Assembly (NCBI GenBank): GCA_018971195.1
Contig: JAGXBK010000004.1
Span: forward strand, 1 to 51,972
Source: Betaproteobacteria bacterium
GTDB taxonomy: Bacteria; Pseudomonadota; Gammaproteobacteria; Burkholderiales; Casimicrobiaceae
Reading direction: 5' to 3'
Length of the DNA: 51,972 bases
The position numbers and the translations under genes were made by a program. How positions within the stretch are numbered: position 1 is the first letter of the stretch; every line of letters starts with the position of its first letter. Positions 10,012 to 18,790 of this stretch are shown here, piece by piece. Below the pieces are notes generated by a model, which was not told the origin of the DNA, searched no databases, and was given only the letters and a program-made list of their open reading frames with translations.

Positions 10012-10584
10012 ATGCGCAGCGACACGGCAGGCGCCGAACCGGGCGCGCGGCCGCCACGCGCCGCGTCCGGTCGCGAATCCTCGCGCACGCGGCAGGACGA
10101 CCGCACCGGAGCGCATTTTACCCACTTCGACACGGCCGGCCAGGCGCACATGGTCGATGTCGGGGCCAAGGACGTGACCCGGCGCGTTGCCCGCGCCGGT
10201 GGCCGCATCGCGATGAAGGCAAGGACCCTCGAGCTGATTCGCGCCGGAACTGCGAAGAAGGGTGACGTGCTGGGGATCGCGCGCATCGCGGCCATCCAGG
10301 CCGCCAAGCGCGCGTCCGAGCTCATTCCACTCGCGCATCCGCTGATGCTGACGCGCGTCGCCGTCGATTTCGCCCATGTCGACGAGGGGCCGGCCGTCGC
10401 CATCGAGGTCACGGTCGAGACCCGCGATCGCACCGGCGTCGAGATGGAAGCGCTGACCGCCGTCGCCGCCGGGCTGCTGACGATCTACGACATGTGCAAG
10501 GCCGTCGACCGCGGCATGCGCATCGAGGGCATTCGCCTGCTCGAGAAGAGCGGCGGCCGGTCGGGACACTACAAGGTCGACTGA
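10012..10584 (+). CDS. moaC: Cyclic pyranopterin monophosphate synthase MoaC
   Basis: MoaC converts 3',8-cyclo-GTP (made by MoaA) to cyclic pyranopterin monophosphate in molybdenum cofactor synthesis. The family core begins at [18 protein letters not shown]; later come [31 protein letters not shown] and [11 protein letters not shown] with the catalytic Lys and Asp, ending [10 protein letters not shown]. Usual length is about 160 residues; this reading has 190, the extra being a basic, Ser/Arg-rich N-terminal tail. I took the ATG at 10012; an ATG at 9973 with a nearby AAGGA is also possible, and no start codon closer to the core exists. No other Mo-cofactor gene is in the window. Confidence 0.9.
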
Positions 10585-10843: not shown

Positions 10844-12052
10844 TCACCAGTCCCACATCGTCCCGTCCTCGAGGCGGTTCACCGGCAGGGCGCTTGCCTT
10901 GTACGGATAGCGGGACGCGAGCGTCTCGTCGATGTCGACGCCGTGGCCCGGCGCGTTTCCAGGATGCAGGTAGCCGTCGGCGAAGTGGTAGGCGTGCGGG
11001 AACACGGCATCGGTCTCCGGGGTGTGCCGCATGTATTCCTGGACGCCGAAGTTGTGCACCCAGGTGTCGAAATGCAACGCAGCACCCATGCACACCGGCG
11101 ACAGGTCGGTCGCGCCGTGCGACCCGGTGCGCACCTGGTGGAGTTCGGCAAGATGCGCGATGCGCCTCAGGTGGGTGATGCCTCCTGCGTGGACAACGGT
11201 GGTGCGGATGTAGTCGATCAGCTGTTCGCCAATCAGCGTCTGGCAGTCGAAGATGGTGTTGAAGACCTCACCGACCGCGATCGGAGTGACCGTGTGCTGG
11301 CGGATCAGTCTGAACGATTCCTGGTTCTCGGCAGGCGTCGGATCCTCCATCCAGAATAGCCGGTAGGGCTCGAGTGCGCGCCCGAGGCGTCCCGCCTCGA
11401 TCGGCGTCAGCCGGTGATGGACGTCGTGGAGCAGGTGATGCTCGAAGCCGAAGCGTGCGCGGATGGCGTCGAAGAGCTTGGGCACGTGGTCGAGGTAGCG
11501 CGCCGTCGACCAGATGTTCTCGGTGGCGATGGCTGCGTCCGCGGGCTCGTAGTACAGTTTGTCCTTCGCGACGCCGTAGGTCGACGCGAGCCCCGGAATC
11601 CCGCATTGCGCCCGGATCGCCTTGTAGCCCATGTCGATGTAACGGGCGACCTCGTCAACCGTTTCCGCGATGTCGCGGCCGTTCGCGTGCCCGTAGACCA
11701 TGACGCCGTCGCGGCTGGCCCCGCCGAGGAGCTCGTAGACCGGCAGGCCGGCGACCTTGCCCTTGATGTCCCAGAGGGCCGTATCGACGGCAGCGATCGC
11801 GCTCATCGTGACCGGTCCGCGCCGCCAGTACGCGCCGCGGTAGAGGTACTGCCAGGTGTCCTCGATGCGCGCGGGATCGCGGCCGATCAGCGCGGGGACG
11901 ACGTGCGCGGTCAGGTAGGTGGCGACCGCCAGCTCGCGGCCGTTCAGCGTCGCGTCGCCGATGCCGGTGACCCCGTCGTCGGTCTCGATCTTCAGGGTGA
12001 CGAAATTGCGGCCGGGGCAGGTGACGATGACGCGGGCTGCGGTGATCTTCAT
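10844..12052 (-). CDS. manD: D-mannonate dehydratase (ManD/RspA group, enolase superfamily)
   Basis: Dehydrates D-mannonate to 2-keto-3-deoxy-D-gluconate. The start ATG at 12052 gives 402 residues, exactly the ManD length, beginning [21 protein letters not shown]; longer in-frame readings add unrelated sequence. With this start the catalytic residues fall on the published ManD positions: Arg147 and Tyr159 (the Tyr/Arg base), metal ligands Asp210 (LLHDVHHR), Glu236 (WMEDPTP) and Glu262 (VGEVFN), acid His212, and C-terminal Trp402. Position 314 is Ala. The gene is divergent from the GntR regulator and shares an operator region with it. With the uronate isomerase and fructuronate reductase further along, it completes the glucuronate branch. 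Confidence 0.95.
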
Positions 12053-12133
12053 GGCGCAAAGCCTCGGGGGGAGCGGGACGAGGATGGCGGCGACCGGCAT
12101 CGCGGGGCGGCCCACGGCCGGGAGTGAGGTCCG

Positions 12134-12154
12134 GTGGTCTAACCACTTGACCAC
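12134..12154. promoter_or_regulatory. Putative operator of the GntR regulator: three GTGGT half-sites
   Basis: GTGGT (12134-12138), CTA, ACCAC (12142-12146), TTG, ACCAC (12150-12154). The first two halves form a perfect palindrome with core TGGTNNNACCA, the motif known for FadR-subfamily GntR proteins; the third repeats the half-site 8 bases on. It covers the -35 of the GntR promoter and the expected start point of the manD promoter, so one bound protein could repress both. Confidence 0.6.
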
Positions 12155-12176
12155 AGTATAGCGGCGTCGCTATGAT
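12147..12176 (+). promoter_or_regulatory. Promoter of the GntR-type regulator gene
   Basis: TTGACC (12147-12152), 18-base spacer, TATGAT (12171-12176): five of six matches at each hexamer. Transcription would start near 12183, which is downstream of the ATG at 12172; this is the main reason for choosing the TTG at 12211 as the regulator start. Confidence 0.6.
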
Positions 12177-12183
12177 GCGTCCA
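12155..12183 (-). promoter_or_regulatory. Candidate promoter of manD
   Basis: On the minus strand TGGACG (12183-12178), 17-base spacer, TATACT (12160-12155). The expected start point is near 12148, inside the half-site array. It overlaps the oppositely directed GntR promoter. Confidence 0.45.
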
Positions 12184-12210
12184 CATCGCGTCGCCGGGGA
12201 GAAACCACCG

Positions 12211-12978
12211 TTGCCTCTTACCGCTGTCGAGCCCAAGCGTCTGTATCGCCAGATCGCCGATCAGCTCGCGCAGCTGATCGCGAGCGGCGAATTCGCTGCC
12301 GGTTCGCGCCTGCCCGCCGAGCGCGAGCTCGCGGCGTCGCTGGGCGTGAGCCGGGCATCGGTGCGCGAGGCGATCATCTCGCTGGAAATGAACGGGTTGG
12401 TGGAGGTCCGCGTCGGGACCGGCATCTTCGTCACGCGTCCGCCCGAAGGTGTGCTGCGCGCGGGCGGGGACGGCGGCCCGGGGCCCTTCGAGCTGCTCGC
12501 GGCGCGCAGGATGGTCGAGGGCGAGATCGCCGCGCTGGCGGCCAAGGGCGCAACCGCTGCGGACGCCGACGCGCTGCGCGAGAGCGTCGTGCGGATGGAG
12601 GCGATGCTCGACGACTTCCATGCGCGCGAAGCCGAGGACCGCGATTTCCACATGCTCGTGGCGCGCGCGAGCGGAAACAGCTCGCTCGAGCTGGTCGTCG
12701 AGGGCCTGTGGAATCAGCGCGCCGGACTGTGGGGCCGGCTGCAGCAGCATTTCCATACGCGCGAGCTCGCCGTGAAGACCATCCGCGACCACGCGGCGAT
12801 CGCGAAAGCCATCGCCAACCGCGATCCCGAGGCGGCGCGCGCGGCGATGCACCGGCATCTGTCGCGGGTCGTACGCGTATTCCAGCGTGGCGTCGACGCC
12901 GAGGCGGGCCGTTCCGCCGCGACGCCGCGCCCCACATCGGCCCGGCACCCTGCGCGGCAGGCGAAGGCGCGGGCATGA
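12211..12978 (+). CDS. GntR-family transcriptional regulator, FadR/FCD subfamily (probable uronate repressor)
   Basis: Predicted one-component repressor of the surrounding uronate genes. The winged-helix domain covers about residues 10-75 (PKRLYRQIADQL, SRLPAERELAASLGVSRASV), followed by an all-helical FCD ligand domain (about 90-225) with EDRDFHMLVARASGN and a late HRHL, the usual metal and ligand positions. I start it at the TTG at 12211, which has a GGGGAG ribosome site 9 bases upstream and gives 255 residues; the ATG at 12172 lies within the predicted -10. Relatives include UxuR and ExuR of E. coli, which respond to fructuronate or galacturonate; the inducer here is inferred from context. 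The last 30 residues are a basic, Ala/Arg-rich tail. Confidence 0.9.
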   Translation: MPLTAVEPKRLYRQIADQLAQLIASGEFAAGSRLPAERELAASLGVSRASVREAIISLEMNGLVEVRVGTGIFVTRPPEGVLRAGGDGGPGPFELLAARRMVEGEIAALAAKGATAADADALRESVVRMEAMLDDFHAREAEDRDFHMLVARASGNSSLELVVEGLWNQRAGLWGRLQQHFHTRELAVKTIRDHAAIAKAIANRDPEAARAAMHRHLSRVVRVFQRGVDAEAGRSAATPRPTSARHPARQAKARA

Positions 12979-13077
12979 ATCTCATCTCGTCGTGGCCCGT
13001 CGAGGGACACGTTCGTTCCCGCGGTCGCCTTGACGCGCATCGGCGATCGATCGTCGACAACTGAAGGAGGAACTGCA

Positions 13078-14289
13078 ATGAGCAACCACAAGAAATGCCC
13101 TGGCGAGTTGCGTCGCCAGACGCTGCGCCTGATGACCGGCGCCGCGATTACAGCGCTGGCGCTCGGATCGACCGCAGCGATGGCGCAGGTTCCCCCACTG
13201 CCGAAGAGCCCGGTGACGATCAACATCGTCGATGTCGCCGGCAATCTTGCGCTGACGCAGGACGCCATCGAGGCCTACCAGAAGGCGCACCCGAACCTGG
13301 TGTCGAAGTTCAATTTCACGAAGGCCCCGGCGCCCGAGCTGCCTGGCAAGCTGAAGGCGATGCAGGCGGCAGGACGCAGCGACATCGACATGGTGCTGAC
13401 GGGCACGGACTTCCTCGCCGCCGGAATCGAGCAGGGCGTGCTGATGAAGATCCTGCCGGCCGACGCGTCGAAGTTTCCCAACCTGATGGCGAACTACCAG
13501 CCGGCGGCAGCGAAGATGCAGGAGCTGGCCGGTGACTACGGTATCGAAGTGACGTTCATGCCGGCCGGGCCGCTGATCGAATACAACCCGGCCACGGTCA
13601 AGGATGTCCCGACGACCCCGGCGCAACTGCTCGCGTGGTGCAAGGCGCATCCGAACCGCCTGATCTACGCCCGGCCCGCGAACTCGGGTCCGGGCCGGAC
13701 GTTCCTGATGGGCTTGCCCTACCTGCTGGGCGACAAGAATCCGAAAGACCCGGTCAATGGCTGGGACAAGACCTGGGCGTACCTGCAGGAGCTCAATTCC
13801 TGCATCGAGTACTACCCGTCGGGTACCGGCGCGGTGATGAAGGAGCTGGGCGAAGGCTCGCGCGACATGACGCCGACGGTGACCGGCTGGGACCTGAATC
13901 CACGCGCGCTGGGCATCGTGCCGAAGAGCTTCAAGGTCGCGCCATTCAAGGGCATGACCTGGGTCAACGACGCGCATTACATGGTCATTCCCAAGGATGT
14001 GGCGCCCGACAAGGTTGCAGTGGTCCTCGACCTGATGGCCTACCTGCTGACCCCGCACGCTCAGGCCTATACCTACGACGAGGGCTATTTCTACCCGGGA
14101 CCTGCGGTCAAGGGCGTGACGATCGCCATGGCGCCGAAGAAGAGCCAGGAATCGATCAAGGAATACGGGCGTCCCGAGTACGCCGGCTGGCTGAAGGAGT
14201 TTCCGCATACGCAGTCGCTTCCTCCCGACGCGCAGGTGAAGGCGTTTGCGCTGTGGGACCAGAAGGTCGGCGCGAAGAAGACCCGGTAA
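13078..14289 (+). CDS. ABC transporter substrate-binding protein (probable sugar-acid importer)
   Basis: Periplasmic binding protein of 403 residues, family 1 type. A strong AAGGAGG site precedes the ATG at 13078. Residues 1-37 are a signal peptide with an Arg-rich start, cut after AMA (twin Arg are not in a Tat motif). The mature protein begins VPPLPKSPVTINIVDVAGN and has no lipobox. It is followed by a matching ATPase and two permeases, and flanked by uronate catabolic genes, so I infer a hexuronate or a related sugar acid as substrate; sequence alone would also allow polyamine, iron or other small-molecule binding. A strong stem-loop between this gene and the ATPase gene may raise its relative expression. 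Confidence 0.85.
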   Translation: MSNHKKCPGELRRQTLRLMTGAAITALALGSTAAMAQVPPLPKSPVTINIVDVAGNLALTQDAIEAYQKAHPNLVSKFNFTKAPAPELPGKLKAMQAAGRSDIDMVLTGTDFLAAGIEQGVLMKILPADASKFPNLMANYQPAAAKMQELAGDYGIEVTFMPAGPLIEYNPATVKDVPTTPAQLLAWCKAHPNRLIYARPANSGPGRTFLMGLPYLLGDKNPKDPVNGWDKTWAYLQELNSCIEYYPSGTGAVMKELGEGSRDMTPTVTGWDLNPRALGIVPKSFKVAPFKGMTWVNDAHYMVIPKDVAPDKVAVVLDLMAYLLTPHAQAYTYDEGYFYPGPAVKGVTIAMAPKKSQESIKEYGRPEYAGWLKEFPHTQSLPPDAQVKAFALWDQKVGAKKTR

Positions 14290-14452: not shown

Positions 14453-15538
14453 ATGAAGCAGGATTTCTCCGAACTGCGCCTCGATCGCGTCACGCGGCGC
14501 TTCGCCGGCGTCGGCGGGAAGGCATTCAACGCGCTCGACGAGCTGACGATCACGATCAAGCGCGGGGAGTTCATCGCGCTGCTCGGGCCCTCCGGCTGCG
14601 GCAAGTCGACGGCGCTGAACTGCATCGCCGGACTGCTGCCATTGTCCGGCGGCACGATCCAGCTCGACGACCTGCGCATCGACACCCTGCCTCCCGAGAG
14701 CCGCGGCTTCGGGATGGTGTTCCAGAACTACGCGCTGTTCCCGCACATGAGCGTCGAGCGCAACATCGGCTTCGGCCTGCGGATGCGCGGCGTTTCCGCG
14801 GCGGAAACGACGATGCGGGTCGCCAATGCGCTGAAGCTCGTCCAGCTCACCGGGCAGGAGCACAAGCTGCCGGGGCAGCTGTCCGGCGGGCAACAGCAGC
14901 GGGTGGCGATCGCCCGCGCGATCGTCATCGAGCCGCCGCTGGTGCTGATGGACGAGCCGCTCTCGAACCTCGACGCCAAGCTGCGCATCGAGACGCGGGC
15001 CGAGATCCGGCGCATCCATCACGAGCTCGGCCGCGCGACGATCTACGTGACGCACGACCAGGACGAGGCCCTGTCGCTGGCCGACCGGATCGTCGTGATG
15101 AAGGACGGTGTCGTCCAGCAGATCGACCGGCCGCAGCAGATCTACGCGCAACCGGCGAACCTGCACGTCGCGCGCTTCATGGGCTACCGCAACGTCATCG
15201 AGATGGACGTCGAAGGCGCGACCGGGGATTGCGTCGAGCTGCGCGACCGGGGCATCCGCCTGAGCGGCGTCGCGATGCAGGCACCGCCTGGGGCGCGGGC
15301 GATGGTCGCGATGCGTCCGGAGGAGATCGTCGTCGGTGAGGGCCCCCAAGGGCGGAACACGCTCGCGGTGCGCGTCGAGACCGTCGAGTACGGCGGCCGC
15401 GATTCCCTCGTCGGCGTCGTGACGGCGACGGGCGCCCGGCTGTTCCTGCGAACCGCGCAATCGGCGGCGCCCGGCGACGCACTCTCGATCCACGTGCCGG
15501 CGGAGCGGGCGCTCGTCTACGCGCCGACGCCGGCATGA
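14453..15538 (+). CDS. ABC transporter ATP-binding protein (PotA/MalK/FbpC type)
   Basis: Cytoplasmic ATPase subunit of 361 residues powering the importer encoded around it. Walker A GPSGCGKST is at 45-53, the Q-loop in FGMVFQNYALFPHM (about 87-99), the signature LSGGQQQR at 143-150 and Walker B LVLMDEP at 163-169, followed by SNLDAKLR and the switch His in VTHDQDEAL. The last 110 residues form a TOBE-type regulatory domain (GVAMQAPPGARAMVAMRPEE). The 163-base gap from the binding protein gene contains the stem-loop and a palindrome; the permease genes follow closely. Confidence 0.93.
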   Translation: MKQDFSELRLDRVTRRFAGVGGKAFNALDELTITIKRGEFIALLGPSGCGKSTALNCIAGLLPLSGGTIQLDDLRIDTLPPESRGFGMVFQNYALFPHMSVERNIGFGLRMRGVSAAETTMRVANALKLVQLTGQEHKLPGQLSGGQQQRVAIARAIVIEPPLVLMDEPLSNLDAKLRIETRAEIRRIHHELGRATIYVTHDQDEALSLADRIVVMKDGVVQQIDRPQQIYAQPANLHVARFMGYRNVIEMDVEGATGDCVELRDRGIRLSGVAMQAPPGARAMVAMRPEEIVVGEGPQGRNTLAVRVETVEYGGRDSLVGVVTATGARLFLRTAQSAAPGDALSIHVPAERALVYAPTPA

Positions 15539-15563
15539 TGCCCGCGGCCGGCCGGGACGGCGC

Positions 15564-16439
15564 ATGAACACGCAGACCTCCGCGCTCGCCCGCGCGCCTT
15601 TCGACCGCACGCTGCTGCTCGCTGCGCCGGCGACGCTGTTCATGGTCGCGCTGTTCATCTATCCCTTCCTCTACGGGCTGTGGCTGTCGTTCGAGCCCGC
15701 CAAAGGGGACTGGCTCGCGAACTACCACAAGTTCTTCACGGCCGACAACCTGTGGCCGACGATCTGGACCACGCTGAAGCTCGCATTGCCTGCGACGCTG
15801 ATCAACGTCGGCATCGCGCTCCCGATCGCGTTCCGGATGCGCGTCAAGAGTCGCTACCAGCGGCTGATCACGACGGTCCTGGTCGTGCCGATCACGCTCG
15901 GCACCGTGCTGATCGCCGACGGGATGCTGACCTATTTCGGGCCGAAAGGCTGGCTCGCGCACCTGCTGGAGCTCCTGCCGTTCTACGAGGGGCCGATCCG
16001 GCTGACGCACAACTACTGGGGCGTGCTGATCTCGCTGGTGATCTCGGGCTTCCCGTTCGCCTTCCTGCTGATCCTGTCGTACATCACCGGCATCGACCCG
16101 GTGCTGGCCCGTGCGGCGTCGACGCTGGGAGCGAGCCCGGCCGCGCAGTTCCGCCACATCTACCTGCCGCTGCTCGCGCCGGGACTCGCGATGTGCTTCT
16201 GCCTGGCCTTCGTGCAGGCGTACTCGGTGTTCCCTTCGGCGGTGCTGCTGGGAGCGCCGGCGGGACCGACGCGCGTCATCTCGCTGGCCGCCTACGAGGC
16301 GGCGTTCGAGCAATACGACTATTCGCTGGCCTCGGCGATCGCGATGATCATGGGATTCGTCCAGTTGATCATCGTGGCGATCGTGCTGGGCCTTCGCGGG
16401 CTGTTCTATCGCGGGCCCGTCGTGGGGGGCAAGGGATGA
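15564..16439 (+). CDS. ABC transporter permease, first subunit
   Basis: Inner-membrane permease of 291 residues with about six hydrophobic segments, the first at 17-40 after a polar N-terminus. The EAA-type loop that contacts the ATPase is at ARAASTLGASPAAQFRHIYL (near 182-201), in the expected position before the last helices. It pairs with the next gene, which begins before this one ends (ATGA, 16436-16439), so the two permeases are made together. The type is PotB/ThiP-like, as in polyamine, iron and sugar-acid importers. Confidence 0.9.
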   Translation: MNTQTSALARAPFDRTLLLAAPATLFMVALFIYPFLYGLWLSFEPAKGDWLANYHKFFTADNLWPTIWTTLKLALPATLINVGIALPIAFRMRVKSRYQRLITTVLVVPITLGTVLIADGMLTYFGPKGWLAHLLELLPFYEGPIRLTHNYWGVLISLVISGFPFAFLLILSYITGIDPVLARAASTLGASPAAQFRHIYLPLLAPGLAMCFCLAFVQAYSVFPSAVLLGAPAGPTRVISLAAYEAAFEQYDYSLASAIAMIMGFVQLIIVAIVLGLRGLFYRGPVVGGKG

Positions 16440-17284
16440 GCGGCGCGAAGTCGTGGCTCGACCGCGCGTGGAGCGGCCTGCTGTGGGGCACGATGGCGGT
16501 GTTCGTCGTCAACGTGGCGATGCTGATCGCGACGGTCGCGACCAACTCGCTCGCGCGCCGGTGGCTCGGCACCTGGTTGCCGGACGGCTGGACGGTGAAC
16601 TGGTACGTCCAGGCGTGGAAGGACTACCAGCTCTCCGACATCCTGTGGGTGACGATGGAGGTCGTGCTGGCAGTCGTCCTGCTGTCGCTGCTGATCGGCG
16701 TGCCCGCCGCCTATGCGCTGGCCCGCCGCGATTTTCCGGGCAAACGCGCGCTGATGCTGCTGTTCCTGCTGCCGCTGATGGTGCCGCCGATGACCTACGG
16801 CATACCGCTCGCGACCGTGCTCTACAAGGCGCAGCTTGCGGGCACGATCTGGGGCGTGATCCTCGCCAACCTGATTCCCGCAGCGCCGTTCGTGATCCTG
16901 GTCATGACGCCGTTCATCGAGCAGATCGACCCGAACCTCGAGTCGGCGGCGCGGGTGTTCGGCGCCGGCACCGCCCGGATGTTCACGTCGATCCTCGTGC
17001 CGCTGCTCGCGCCGGGGATCCTCGCCGCATCGCTGCTGGTGCTGGTGCGCACGATCGCGCTGTTCGAGCTCACGTTCCTGACCGCAGGGCCCGATTCGCA
17101 GACCCTGGTCGTCGCGCTCTACTACGCGGTGTTTGCCGCCGGCGTGCGCGCGCCGCAGTCGATCGATGCGATGGCGATGATCTACATGGTGGTGACGCTG
17201 GTGTGGCTGCTGATCGCATTGCGCTTCGTCAACCCGACCCAGCTCGTGAGCCGCGTCAAGGAGCATCCGCGGGTGGCCGCGTGA
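16436..17284 (+). CDS. ABC transporter permease, second subunit
   Basis: Permease of 282 residues, PotC-like, with a first helix at about 17-38 (VFVVNVAMLIATVATNSL). The EAA loop is ESAARVFGAGTARMFTSILV (about 165-184). It completes a binding protein, ATPase, permease, permease set. The stop is 21 bases before the GTG of the fructuronate reductase-like gene, so transporter and catabolic genes probably share one transcript. That link is the strongest evidence for a sugar-acid substrate. Confidence 0.9.
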   Translation: MSGAKSWLDRAWSGLLWGTMAVFVVNVAMLIATVATNSLARRWLGTWLPDGWTVNWYVQAWKDYQLSDILWVTMEVVLAVVLLSLLIGVPAAYALARRDFPGKRALMLLFLLPLMVPPMTYGIPLATVLYKAQLAGTIWGVILANLIPAAPFVILVMTPFIEQIDPNLESAARVFGAGTARMFTSILVPLLAPGILAASLLVLVRTIALFELTFLTAGPDSQTLVVALYYAVFAAGVRAPQSIDAMAMIYMVVTLVWLLIALRFVNPTQLVSRVKEHPRVAA

Positions 17285-17305: not shown

Positions 17306-18790
17306 GTGAATGCACCCCGCCTCTCGTTCGCAACGCTCGCCGCGGCCGCCGCCGGCGTCGTCCGGCCCGGTTATGCGCCCGAGCGGCTCCAGGTCGGCAT
17401 CGTCCATCTGGGCATCGGGGCGTTCCATCGCGCCCACCAGGCGCTCTATACCGACGACGCGCTCGCGCGGGCCGGCGGGGCGTGGGGCATCTGCGGAGTC
17501 AGTCTGCGCTCGGCCGACGTCCGCGACCGGCTGGCGCCCCAGGACTGCCTGTACACGTCGGTCGAAGTGAGCCCGGCAGGGGTGCGCCGGCGCGTCGTCG
17601 GCAGCGTGCGCGAAGTGCTGTTCCTGGGCGATCAACGCCTCGACGTGCATCGCCGGCTCGCTGCGCGCGAGACGCGGATCATCACGCTGACCGTGACCGA
17701 AAAAGGCTATTGCCACGAGCCGGCGACCGGAAAGCTCGATTTCGCGCATCCGGATATCGTCCACGATCTCGTGCAGCCCGACGCGTCGCGCAGCGTCGTG
17801 GGCCTGCTGACCTGGGCGCTGGCGCAGCGCCGGGCCACGCACGGCGCGCCACTGACGCTCGTATGCTGCGACAACCTGCCGCACAACGGCGCGCTGCTGC
17901 GCGGGCTGGTCGACGCGTTCGCCCGCGCCCGCGATCCTGCGCTCGCCGACTGGATCGCGCGCACGATCGCGTTCCCGTCGACGATGGTCGATCGCATCGT
18001 GCCGGCGACGACGGCCGACGACATCGCGCGGAACGACGCGGCGCTCGGACTCGAGGACCGGGCGCCTGTGGTCCACGAGCCTTTCATTCAATGGGTGATC
18101 GAGGACGCTTTCGCCACCGAGCGGCCGGCGTGGGAGCTGGCGGGCGCGACGCTCACCGACGACGTCGCGCCCTTCGAATCGATGAAGCTGCGCCTGCTGA
18201 ACGCGAGCCACTCCGCTTTCGCGTACCTCGGATTCCTCGCCGGTCACGAGTACATCTACCAGGTCGCGGCGCAGCCCGATTTCATCGCACTGATGCGCCG
18301 GTACACCGCGGTCGAGGTCTCGCCGACGCTGAAGATCCCCGCCGGGGTCGACGTTGCCGCCTATTGCGAGGCGCTGGAGCGGCGGTTCGCGAATCCGGCG
18401 CTGCCGCACCGGACCACTCAGATCGCGATGGACGGCTCGCAGAAGCTGCCGCAGCGCATCCTCGCGACGGTGCGCGCCAATCTCGCCGCCGGCCGACCGG
18501 TCGAGCTCGCCGCGTTGGCTGTCGCCGGTTGGATGCGCTACGTTCGAGGCGACGACGAGCACGGGCAGCCGATCCGCGTCTCGGATCCGCTGGCATCGCG
18601 CTTCGCCTCGATCGCCACCGGGTCGGGCAAGGATCCGGTGGCGTACGCGCGAGGGCTGCTCGCGCTGTCCCCGATCTTCGGCGACGACCTGCCGGACGAT
18701 GCGCGATTCACCGGGCCTGTCATCCGCTGGCTCGGCGCGTTGTTTTCCGATGGGGCCGCGGCGACCGTGGCCCGCGCCGTGCGCGCGTGA
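17306..18790 (+). CDS. uxuB: Mannitol dehydrogenase-family oxidoreductase, probable fructuronate reductase
   Basis: NAD(P)-dependent long-chain polyol dehydrogenase of 494 residues. In this context it most likely reduces D-fructuronate to D-mannonate, feeding ManD. The nucleotide-binding stretch is GIVHLGIGAFHRAHQ (31-45). The catalytic Lys294, Asn299 and His302 in MKLRLLNASHS match the K-x4-N-x2-H spacing known from Pseudomonas mannitol dehydrogenase (295, 300, 303). The start is a GTG at 17306 just after the permease stop. Family members also act on mannitol, arabinitol or tagaturonate, so the substrate rests on neighbours: manD upstream and uxaC downstream. Confidence 0.87.
   Translation: MNAPRLSFATLAAAAAGVVRPGYAPERLQVGIVHLGIGAFHRAHQALYTDDALARAGGAWGICGVSLRSADVRDRLAPQDCLYTSVEVSPAGVRRRVVGSVREVLFLGDQRLDVHRRLAARETRIITLTVTEKGYCHEPATGKLDFAHPDIVHDLVQPDASRSVVGLLTWALAQRRATHGAPLTLVCCDNLPHNGALLRGLVDAFARARDPALADWIARTIAFPSTMVDRIVPATTADDIARNDAALGLEDRAPVVHEPFIQWVIEDAFATERPAWELAGATLTDDVAPFESMKLRLLNASHSAFAYLGFLAGHEYIYQVAAQPDFIALMRRYTAVEVSPTLKIPAGVDVAAYCEALERRFANPALPHRTTQIAMDGSQKLPQRILATVRANLAAGRPVELAALAVAGWMRYVRGDDEHGQPIRVSDPLASRFASIATGSGKDPVAYARGLLALSPIFGDDLPDDARFTGPVIRWLGALFSDGAAATVARAVRA

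Follow-up and report, generated by a model that had tools for sequence, protein, structure and literature searches.

The 27-bp element at positions 12127..12153 of the window (the whole 51,972-nucleotide stretch analysed) is predicted to serve as operator for the GntR/FCD repressor encoded beside it, which would close the gntR and manD promoters together until a compound of the uronate pathway releases it. Judging from sequence comparisons, the probability of this reading was put at about 80%. In the most likely arrangement, one site lets an ExuR/UxuR-like FCD repressor shut down both its own promoter and that of manD; a single conserved site was found between gntR and the divergent manD, alongside both predicted promoters.

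Gene Content of the Locus

The regulator gene gntR (12211..12978, plus strand) has a TTG start and encodes 255 aa; its start and second residue were invariant among 15 aligned sequences. By both of its domains, an N-terminal GntR winged helix (PF00392, 80.8 bits, cutoff 27) and a C-terminal FCD domain (PF07729, 88.6 bits, cutoff 24.3), the product is a member of the FadR subfamily of the GntR family. The top three NCBIfam matches were ExuR, UxuR and NanR, all far under their cutoffs. E. coli ExuR and UxuR, which function in the same pathway as the locus, were the highest-scoring named regulators, and neither reached its curated NCBIfam equivalog cutoff (147.7 versus 396 bits for ExuR and 122.8 versus 442 bits for UxuR).

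The manD gene (10844..12052, minus strand) encodes a D-mannonate dehydratase of 402 aa (NCBIfam ManoateDhtManD, 745.3 bits, cutoff 550). Beyond it, on the left side, is moaC (10099-10584). On the plus strand, gntR is followed by genes for an ABC transporter solute-binding protein (13072..14289, Pfam SBP_bac_8), an ABC transporter ATPase and two permeases (14453..17284, profile matches), and a fructuronate reductase-like protein of the mannitol dehydrogenase family (17306..18790; PRK15037, 431.6 bits, under the cutoff of 603). According to these profile matches, the gene content of the locus is that of uronate catabolism. The gntR gene and the transport genes probably share one transcript. The closest named relatives of the locus were in assemblies labelled Betaproteobacteria, Proteobacteria or Burkholderiales.

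Predicted Interleaved Promoters

The predicted gntR promoter is TTGACC-18-TATGAT on the plus strand (12147..12176), with the -35 at 12147-12152, the -10 at 12171-12176 and a probable start at about 12183. The predicted manD promoter is TGGACG-17-TATACT on the minus strand (12155..12183), with the -35 at 12183-12178, the -10 at 12160-12155 and a probable start at about 12148. A promoter scan of 11900-12400 returned exactly these two sites, with a mean of 0.0 in 50 shuffles. Under the same rule, the whole window held five plus-strand matches and one minus-strand match, and the manD/gntR pair was its only pair of opposite matches overlapping by at least 20 bp. Both scans agreed with the interleaved arrangement proposed in the initial annotation, and the stretches from -35 to -10 of the two opposed consensus matches overlap. 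The minus-strand -35 was weak, with 3 to 4 of 6 consensus letters. The sixth base of the -35 consensus is usually A; in the gntR promoter it was C in all 27 orthologs aligned. Furthermore, TAnnnT was present 16-18 bp past the -35 in 26 of these, the exception being L035. With starts at about 12183 and 12148, the operator would lie at about -56 to -30 of gntR and -5 to +22 of manD.

Anatomy of the Proposed Operator

The proposed operator is an imperfect dyad, AGGTC-CG-GTGGT-CTA-ACCAC-TT-GACCA, centred at 12140, and was delimited from its letters, its conservation in 27 orthologs and its genome-wide link with GntR genes. It comprises box 1 (AGGTC, ideally TGGTC, 12127..12131), which was recognised from conservation at the mirrored offset in orthologs; box 2 (GTGGT, 12134..12138) and box 3 (ACCAC, 12142..12146), both seen in the letters and in the ortholog alignment; and box 4 (GACCAC, 12149..12154), which overlaps the gntR -35. 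Compared with the ideal element TGGTC-N2-GTGGT-N3-ACCAC-N2-GACCA, the copy in the window differs at one of the 20 fixed letters, and the dyad measures 27 bp once box 1 is counted.

Half-sites placed 8 bp apart, GTGGT at 12134-12138 and ACCAC at 12142-12146 and 12150-12154, had been described before as a three-half-site operator, and the letters, places and spacing of these boxes were as described. The three-half-site model was nevertheless rejected as incomplete, because the alignment of the 27 orthologs contained a fourth box at the mirrored place, 12127-12131, which had been missed. In addition, the box at 12150, whose letters had been read correctly, is one with the gntR -35, and only its ACC was conserved; the following A occurred in 15 and the C in 16 of the 27 orthologs.

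On sequence grounds, the region contains a putative palindromic operator of the TGGTNNNACCA type that marks the FadR subfamily. This palindrome occurred once in the window against a shuffle mean of 0.22, and since it turned up at least once in 19 of 100 shuffles, it is not rare on its own. The exact pattern GTGGTN3ACCACN3ACCAC was also found once, with an expectation of 1.8e-5 per window (first-order model, both strands). With the shuffles, this expectation and the reversed-pattern control in related genomes, chance was rejected as the origin of the array and of the paired promoters; for the inner palindrome by itself it was not.

Conservation among Orthologs

The survey covered 64 genomes of the window's family, 32 of which encoded a GntR relative (E 1e-40 or lower). 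Window-type gntR was defined by at least 52% identity, giving 28 genes, 27 of them with upstream sequence; L025 was dropped from the set because its contig begins inside the gene. When 399 genomes of the order were searched, 8 had matches at 1e-60; three of these belong to the family and 5 lie outside it. The 27 orthologs were aligned on CTTGACC (CTTTACC in L035, known beforehand), an anchor that was found in 27/27 with none lost. The anchor was chosen on these letters, so their invariance, including that of the ACC of box 4 (27/27), is partly an artefact. Boxes 2 to 4 were recognisable upstream of all 27 genes; the palindrome columns were nearly invariant, and conservation dropped leftward of the outer box. 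The array was therefore kept across the orthologs, in agreement with the conservation in relatives expected in the initial annotation.

Box 1, scored as at least 4/5 letters of TGGTC, was present at the mirrored offset in 18/24 orthologs versus 0-3/24 at 26 other offsets. The 24 exclude L022, L023 and L035, in which box 2 is turned and the outer-left place reads TGGAC, TGGCC and TGGTT, respectively; with these added, box 1 was found in 21/27. It was missing in L028, L030, L032 and L034, which form one clade, while L011 and L012 had 3/5 and 2/5 of its letters. In the three excluded orthologs, which represent two separate lineages, box 2 was ACCAC for GTGGT with the 8-bp register unchanged. In the GntR tree, L022 has L023 as its sister and L035 branches off deepest in the set, so box 2 was turned at least twice, or once and then reverted.

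The Minus-Strand -10 and the Divergent Gene

The manD gene was divergent in 13/27 loci (behind a Gfo/Idh gene in L024, and cut by the contig end in L018 and L022), and a Gfo/Idh gene was divergent in L013. A minus-strand -10 (TATACT or TATAAT) was present at the expected place in each of these 14 loci, one base further in L018. The match was 5-6/6 in these loci versus at most 3/6 for the best minus-strand site in each of the other 13. Nine of the latter (L014, L016, L028-L034) lacked manD and carried moaC within 1 kb upstream, in the same orientation. L021 and L026 had divergent genes of other function (aminotransferase and glycosyltransferase, respectively) and no minus -10 there, L035 had neither manD nor minus -10, and L027 had no minus -10 on a contig too short to show the neighbour. 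Because moaC is found behind manD in the window and ahead of gntR in nine relatives that lack manD, manD can be regarded as an optional element separating moaC from gntR.

The divergent state required 4 changes on the GntR tree. Starred branches provided 3 independent pairs, and all branches together 4. The 3 pairs agreed in direction, which in a sign test (p 0.25) is below significance. The clearest pair, two sisters, contrasted L017, with manD and TATACT, and L016, with TGGACT, no manD and moaC adjoining. The predicted minus promoter is thus supported by a -10 that appears to track the divergent gene over 3 to 4 independent changes.

At E 1e-120, ManD was found in 13/64 genomes, a count that leaves out the partial copies of L018 and L022. 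In G031, where ManD is encoded elsewhere, no such palindrome was found in the 1.3 kb upstream; the contig of the G043 ManD gene ends within the gene. In L021 (G003:C66), a minus-strand TATAAT was observed to the left of the array, outside the operator, before the divergent aminotransferase gene.

Genome-Wide Link of Array and Regulator

The exact core TGGTNNNRCCACTTGACC was found at 57 places in 31 of the 64 genomes, versus 1 place for the reversed control in the same genomes. It was present in 31/32 genomes with a GntR relative and in 0/32 without; G063 was the sole genome with the relative and without the exact core. The 64 genomes are not independent cases in this count, because regulator-less genera lack the array as whole groups. 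Within the window's own genus, G052 and G053 were without both array and regulator.

Most of the places (42/57) were within 300 bp upstream of a GntR gene on the same strand. By neighbour, 18 lay before window-type gntR, 24 before paralog-type gntR and 15 elsewhere (L149-L163). The genes downstream of five of these 15 were checked and encoded TctC (2), DctP (2) and a 2-hydroxyacid dehydrogenase (1). In G027 and G056, the sole exact place was away from any GntR gene found. Among the 59 GntR genes listed, 17 had no exact match upstream; those of the 17 that were window-type and had upstream sequence showed inexact matches.

The window's own genome (3.17 Mb) contained two exact places only, the one in the window and one before a paralog on contig C256. 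The latter (C256:16419-16436 in G000; L039, L199) reads TGGTAATGCCACTTGACC, has the same core and is located upstream of a paralogous FCD regulator gene. Cross-talk between this paralog and the window's regulator is possible. By eye, the frames beside the paralog resemble sugar-acid and ABC transporter genes. In G044, a divergent enolase-superfamily gene with MR_MLE domains (L202:2173-3480, minus strand) lies beside a paralog-type gntR, echoing the manD-gntR arrangement.

The palindrome alone, allowing at most one mismatch, was of no use as an operator finder in the own genome (48 forward versus 119 reversed matches). Similarly, TGGTCNGACCAC without the TTGACC requirement gave 37 places in 19/64 genomes versus 45 for its reversed control, so the palindrome by itself is not specific. 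TTGACC was in register at 11 of these 37 places, and ACC without TTG at 3 (CTGACC, CAGACC and TCGACC).

Relatives outside the Family

Another 69 named loci, some possibly of the window's family, were recounted. The core site was present in 57/69, and 12/69 were without it by the rule used. An outer box at exactly 8 bp was found on the right in 8/57 and on the left in 4/57 loci, versus 0-2 loci at each of the other distances between 5 and 12 bp; the remaining 45/57 had none at 8 bp. The right-box loci were from Azohydromonas, Silvimonas, Parapusillimonas, an Alcaligenaceae strain, Rhizobacter, Vreelandella and two Achromobacter. All four left-box loci were from Pseudomonas, so the 12 are not 12 independent cases. 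None of the right boxes outside the family was within TTGACC, which speaks for box 4 being more than a -35. A four-box array general to the GntR group was not borne out; the full form occurred in the window's family only, and elsewhere an outer box was seen in 12/57.

Two other arrangements were observed among these relatives. In Pseudomonas, TGGTCAGGCCA appears as another operator form. Tandem FadR-type palindromes about 20 bp apart near the start codon were noted by eye in Polaromonas, Variovorax, Rhodoferax and Achromobacter (L079, L080, L081, L084, L087, L088, L089, L093, L097 and L104).

Proposed Switch and Alternative Explanations

In the proposed switch, a repressor dimer would most likely occupy boxes 2 and 3, which make up the inner palindrome. 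The boxes flanking these at 8 bp on either side might hold further dimers, strengthen binding or enlarge the contact. The bound repressor would sit over the gntR -35 and the manD start point, and because both would be covered, both promoters would be shut at once. Release would be caused by fructuronate, mannonate or a neighbouring compound of the uronate pathway, after which polymerase would take one of the two mutually exclusive, interleaved promoters. The shared switch for regulator and enzyme suggested earlier thus keeps its basis, a conserved operator within reach of both promoters, and is revised from three boxes to four.

More tentatively, the FCD repressors of the window's family may read an 8-bp lattice of orientation-exchangeable half-sites instead of one palindrome. 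The -35 would then be a lattice box that is touched by polymerase as well, and divergent genes would be added by gaining a -10 only. This extension is considered possible, with the odds leaning against it. On a plainer account, the operator would be only the inner palindrome TGGTNNNACCA, and the -35 ACC and the upstream TGGTC would be promoter or chance sequence kept by descent. Such an account fits the coincidence of box 4 with the -35 in 27 orthologs, the 45/57 outside loci that have the site and show no outer box at 8 bp, and the absence of box 1 in 6/27 orthologs. Yet box 1 lies outside the hexamers of both promoters and still occurred at the mirrored offset in 18/24 orthologs versus 0-3/24; three loci in two lineages retained all four positions despite a turned box 2; and outer boxes elsewhere favoured 8 bp, the right ones not being in TTGACC. 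An operator of the palindrome alone is therefore considered improbable.

The four-box operator of the adjacent repressor, acting on both promoters, was also weighed against explanations that change the promoters or the regulator. It is quite improbable that the gntR promoter alone is real, with manD starting elsewhere and the minus-strand TATACT being fortuitous: a -10 at 5-6/6 in 14 loci with divergent manD or Gfo/Idh versus at most 3/6 in 13 others argues against it, even though the minus strand offers a poor -35 (3 to 4 of 6) and the independent changes on the tree are few. The array might instead be read by another FCD regulator, such as the C256 paralog, or by several cross-binding ones, and not by the adjacent GntR alone. 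The paralog's own promoter has TGGTAATGCCACTTGACC, of the 57 exact places 24 precede paralog-type genes and 15 are elsewhere, and the tested genes after stray arrays encode TctC (2), DctP (2) and a 2-hydroxyacid dehydrogenase (1). However, the array is directly upstream of the own gene for each regulator type, the usual sign of autoregulation, and a different or shared reader is considered rather unlikely.

Comparison with Known Systems

Face-to-face overlapping promoters closed by one repressor site are classical in E. coli bio and argE-argCBH. These systems differ from the present locus in that the repressors belong to other families and the regulator gene is not in the pair. The repeats bound by E. 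coli NanR are 8-9 bp apart.

Like the window's regulator, NanR is an FCD GntR regulator of a sugar acid with a closely spaced array of half-sites. According to passages of PMC8012715, three NanR dimers assemble on the adjacent repeats of the (GGTATA)3 operator, each offset by about half a DNA turn, and cooperativity requires a 32-residue N-terminal extension. The half-turn offset resembles the 8-bp distance of the window's boxes, whereas the NanR repeats described there are all direct and the window's boxes are mirrored (PMC8012715). In the window's protein, the GntR domain begins at residue 11, leaving no room for a NanR-type extension, and residue 8 aligns to NanR residue 29; neither the domain match nor the NanR alignment gave any sign of that extension. 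Furthermore, a FadR-type operator, GTGTGGTCAGACCACAC, was predicted for MSMEG_0596 (PMC2018728); it, too, has the GTGGTN3ACCAC palindrome of boxes 2 and 3 in front of a gene for a FadR-type GntR regulator. It differs in being a mycobacterial prediction of the palindrome alone; the passage concerned gives no outer boxes or promoters (PMC2018728).

For FadR-subfamily GntR regulators, sites were described in which weaker boxes flank a palindromic core, 7-12 nt away from its centre, on one side or on both; where the genes of a regulator and an enzyme form a divergon, a single site was described as serving both operons (Suvorova et al. 2015, relevant sections of PMC4494728). The window's operator is in agreement with that description in its palindromic core, extra half-sites and predicted single-site divergon. 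Compared with the same sections, the window's family has a strict 8-bp lattice, one box fused with the -35, and a box 2 in either orientation; fusion of an extra half-site with the -35 is not named in sections 5, 14 and 17 of PMC4494728. The separate parts, namely extra half-sites beside FadR-type palindromes, single-site divergons and face-to-face promoters under one operator, are thus already described, and the fixed 8-bp four-box lattice, the -35 as a lattice box and the box changing orientation in place appear to be new relative to them. Among titles and abstract openings in the literature, mostly outside subscription papers, no report of the array or of a manD-gntR switch was found.

The function of extra half-sites beside GntR palindromes was left open in 2015 (PMC4494728, section 17). 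In the window's family, these half-sites are kept at a fixed register relative to the core and the -35, and are flipped in two lineages. Their role is therefore open to study with a single protein and a small set of short DNA fragments. Moreover, within one and the same operator, the L016/L017 pair shows a divergent -10 where manD is found and none where it is missing.
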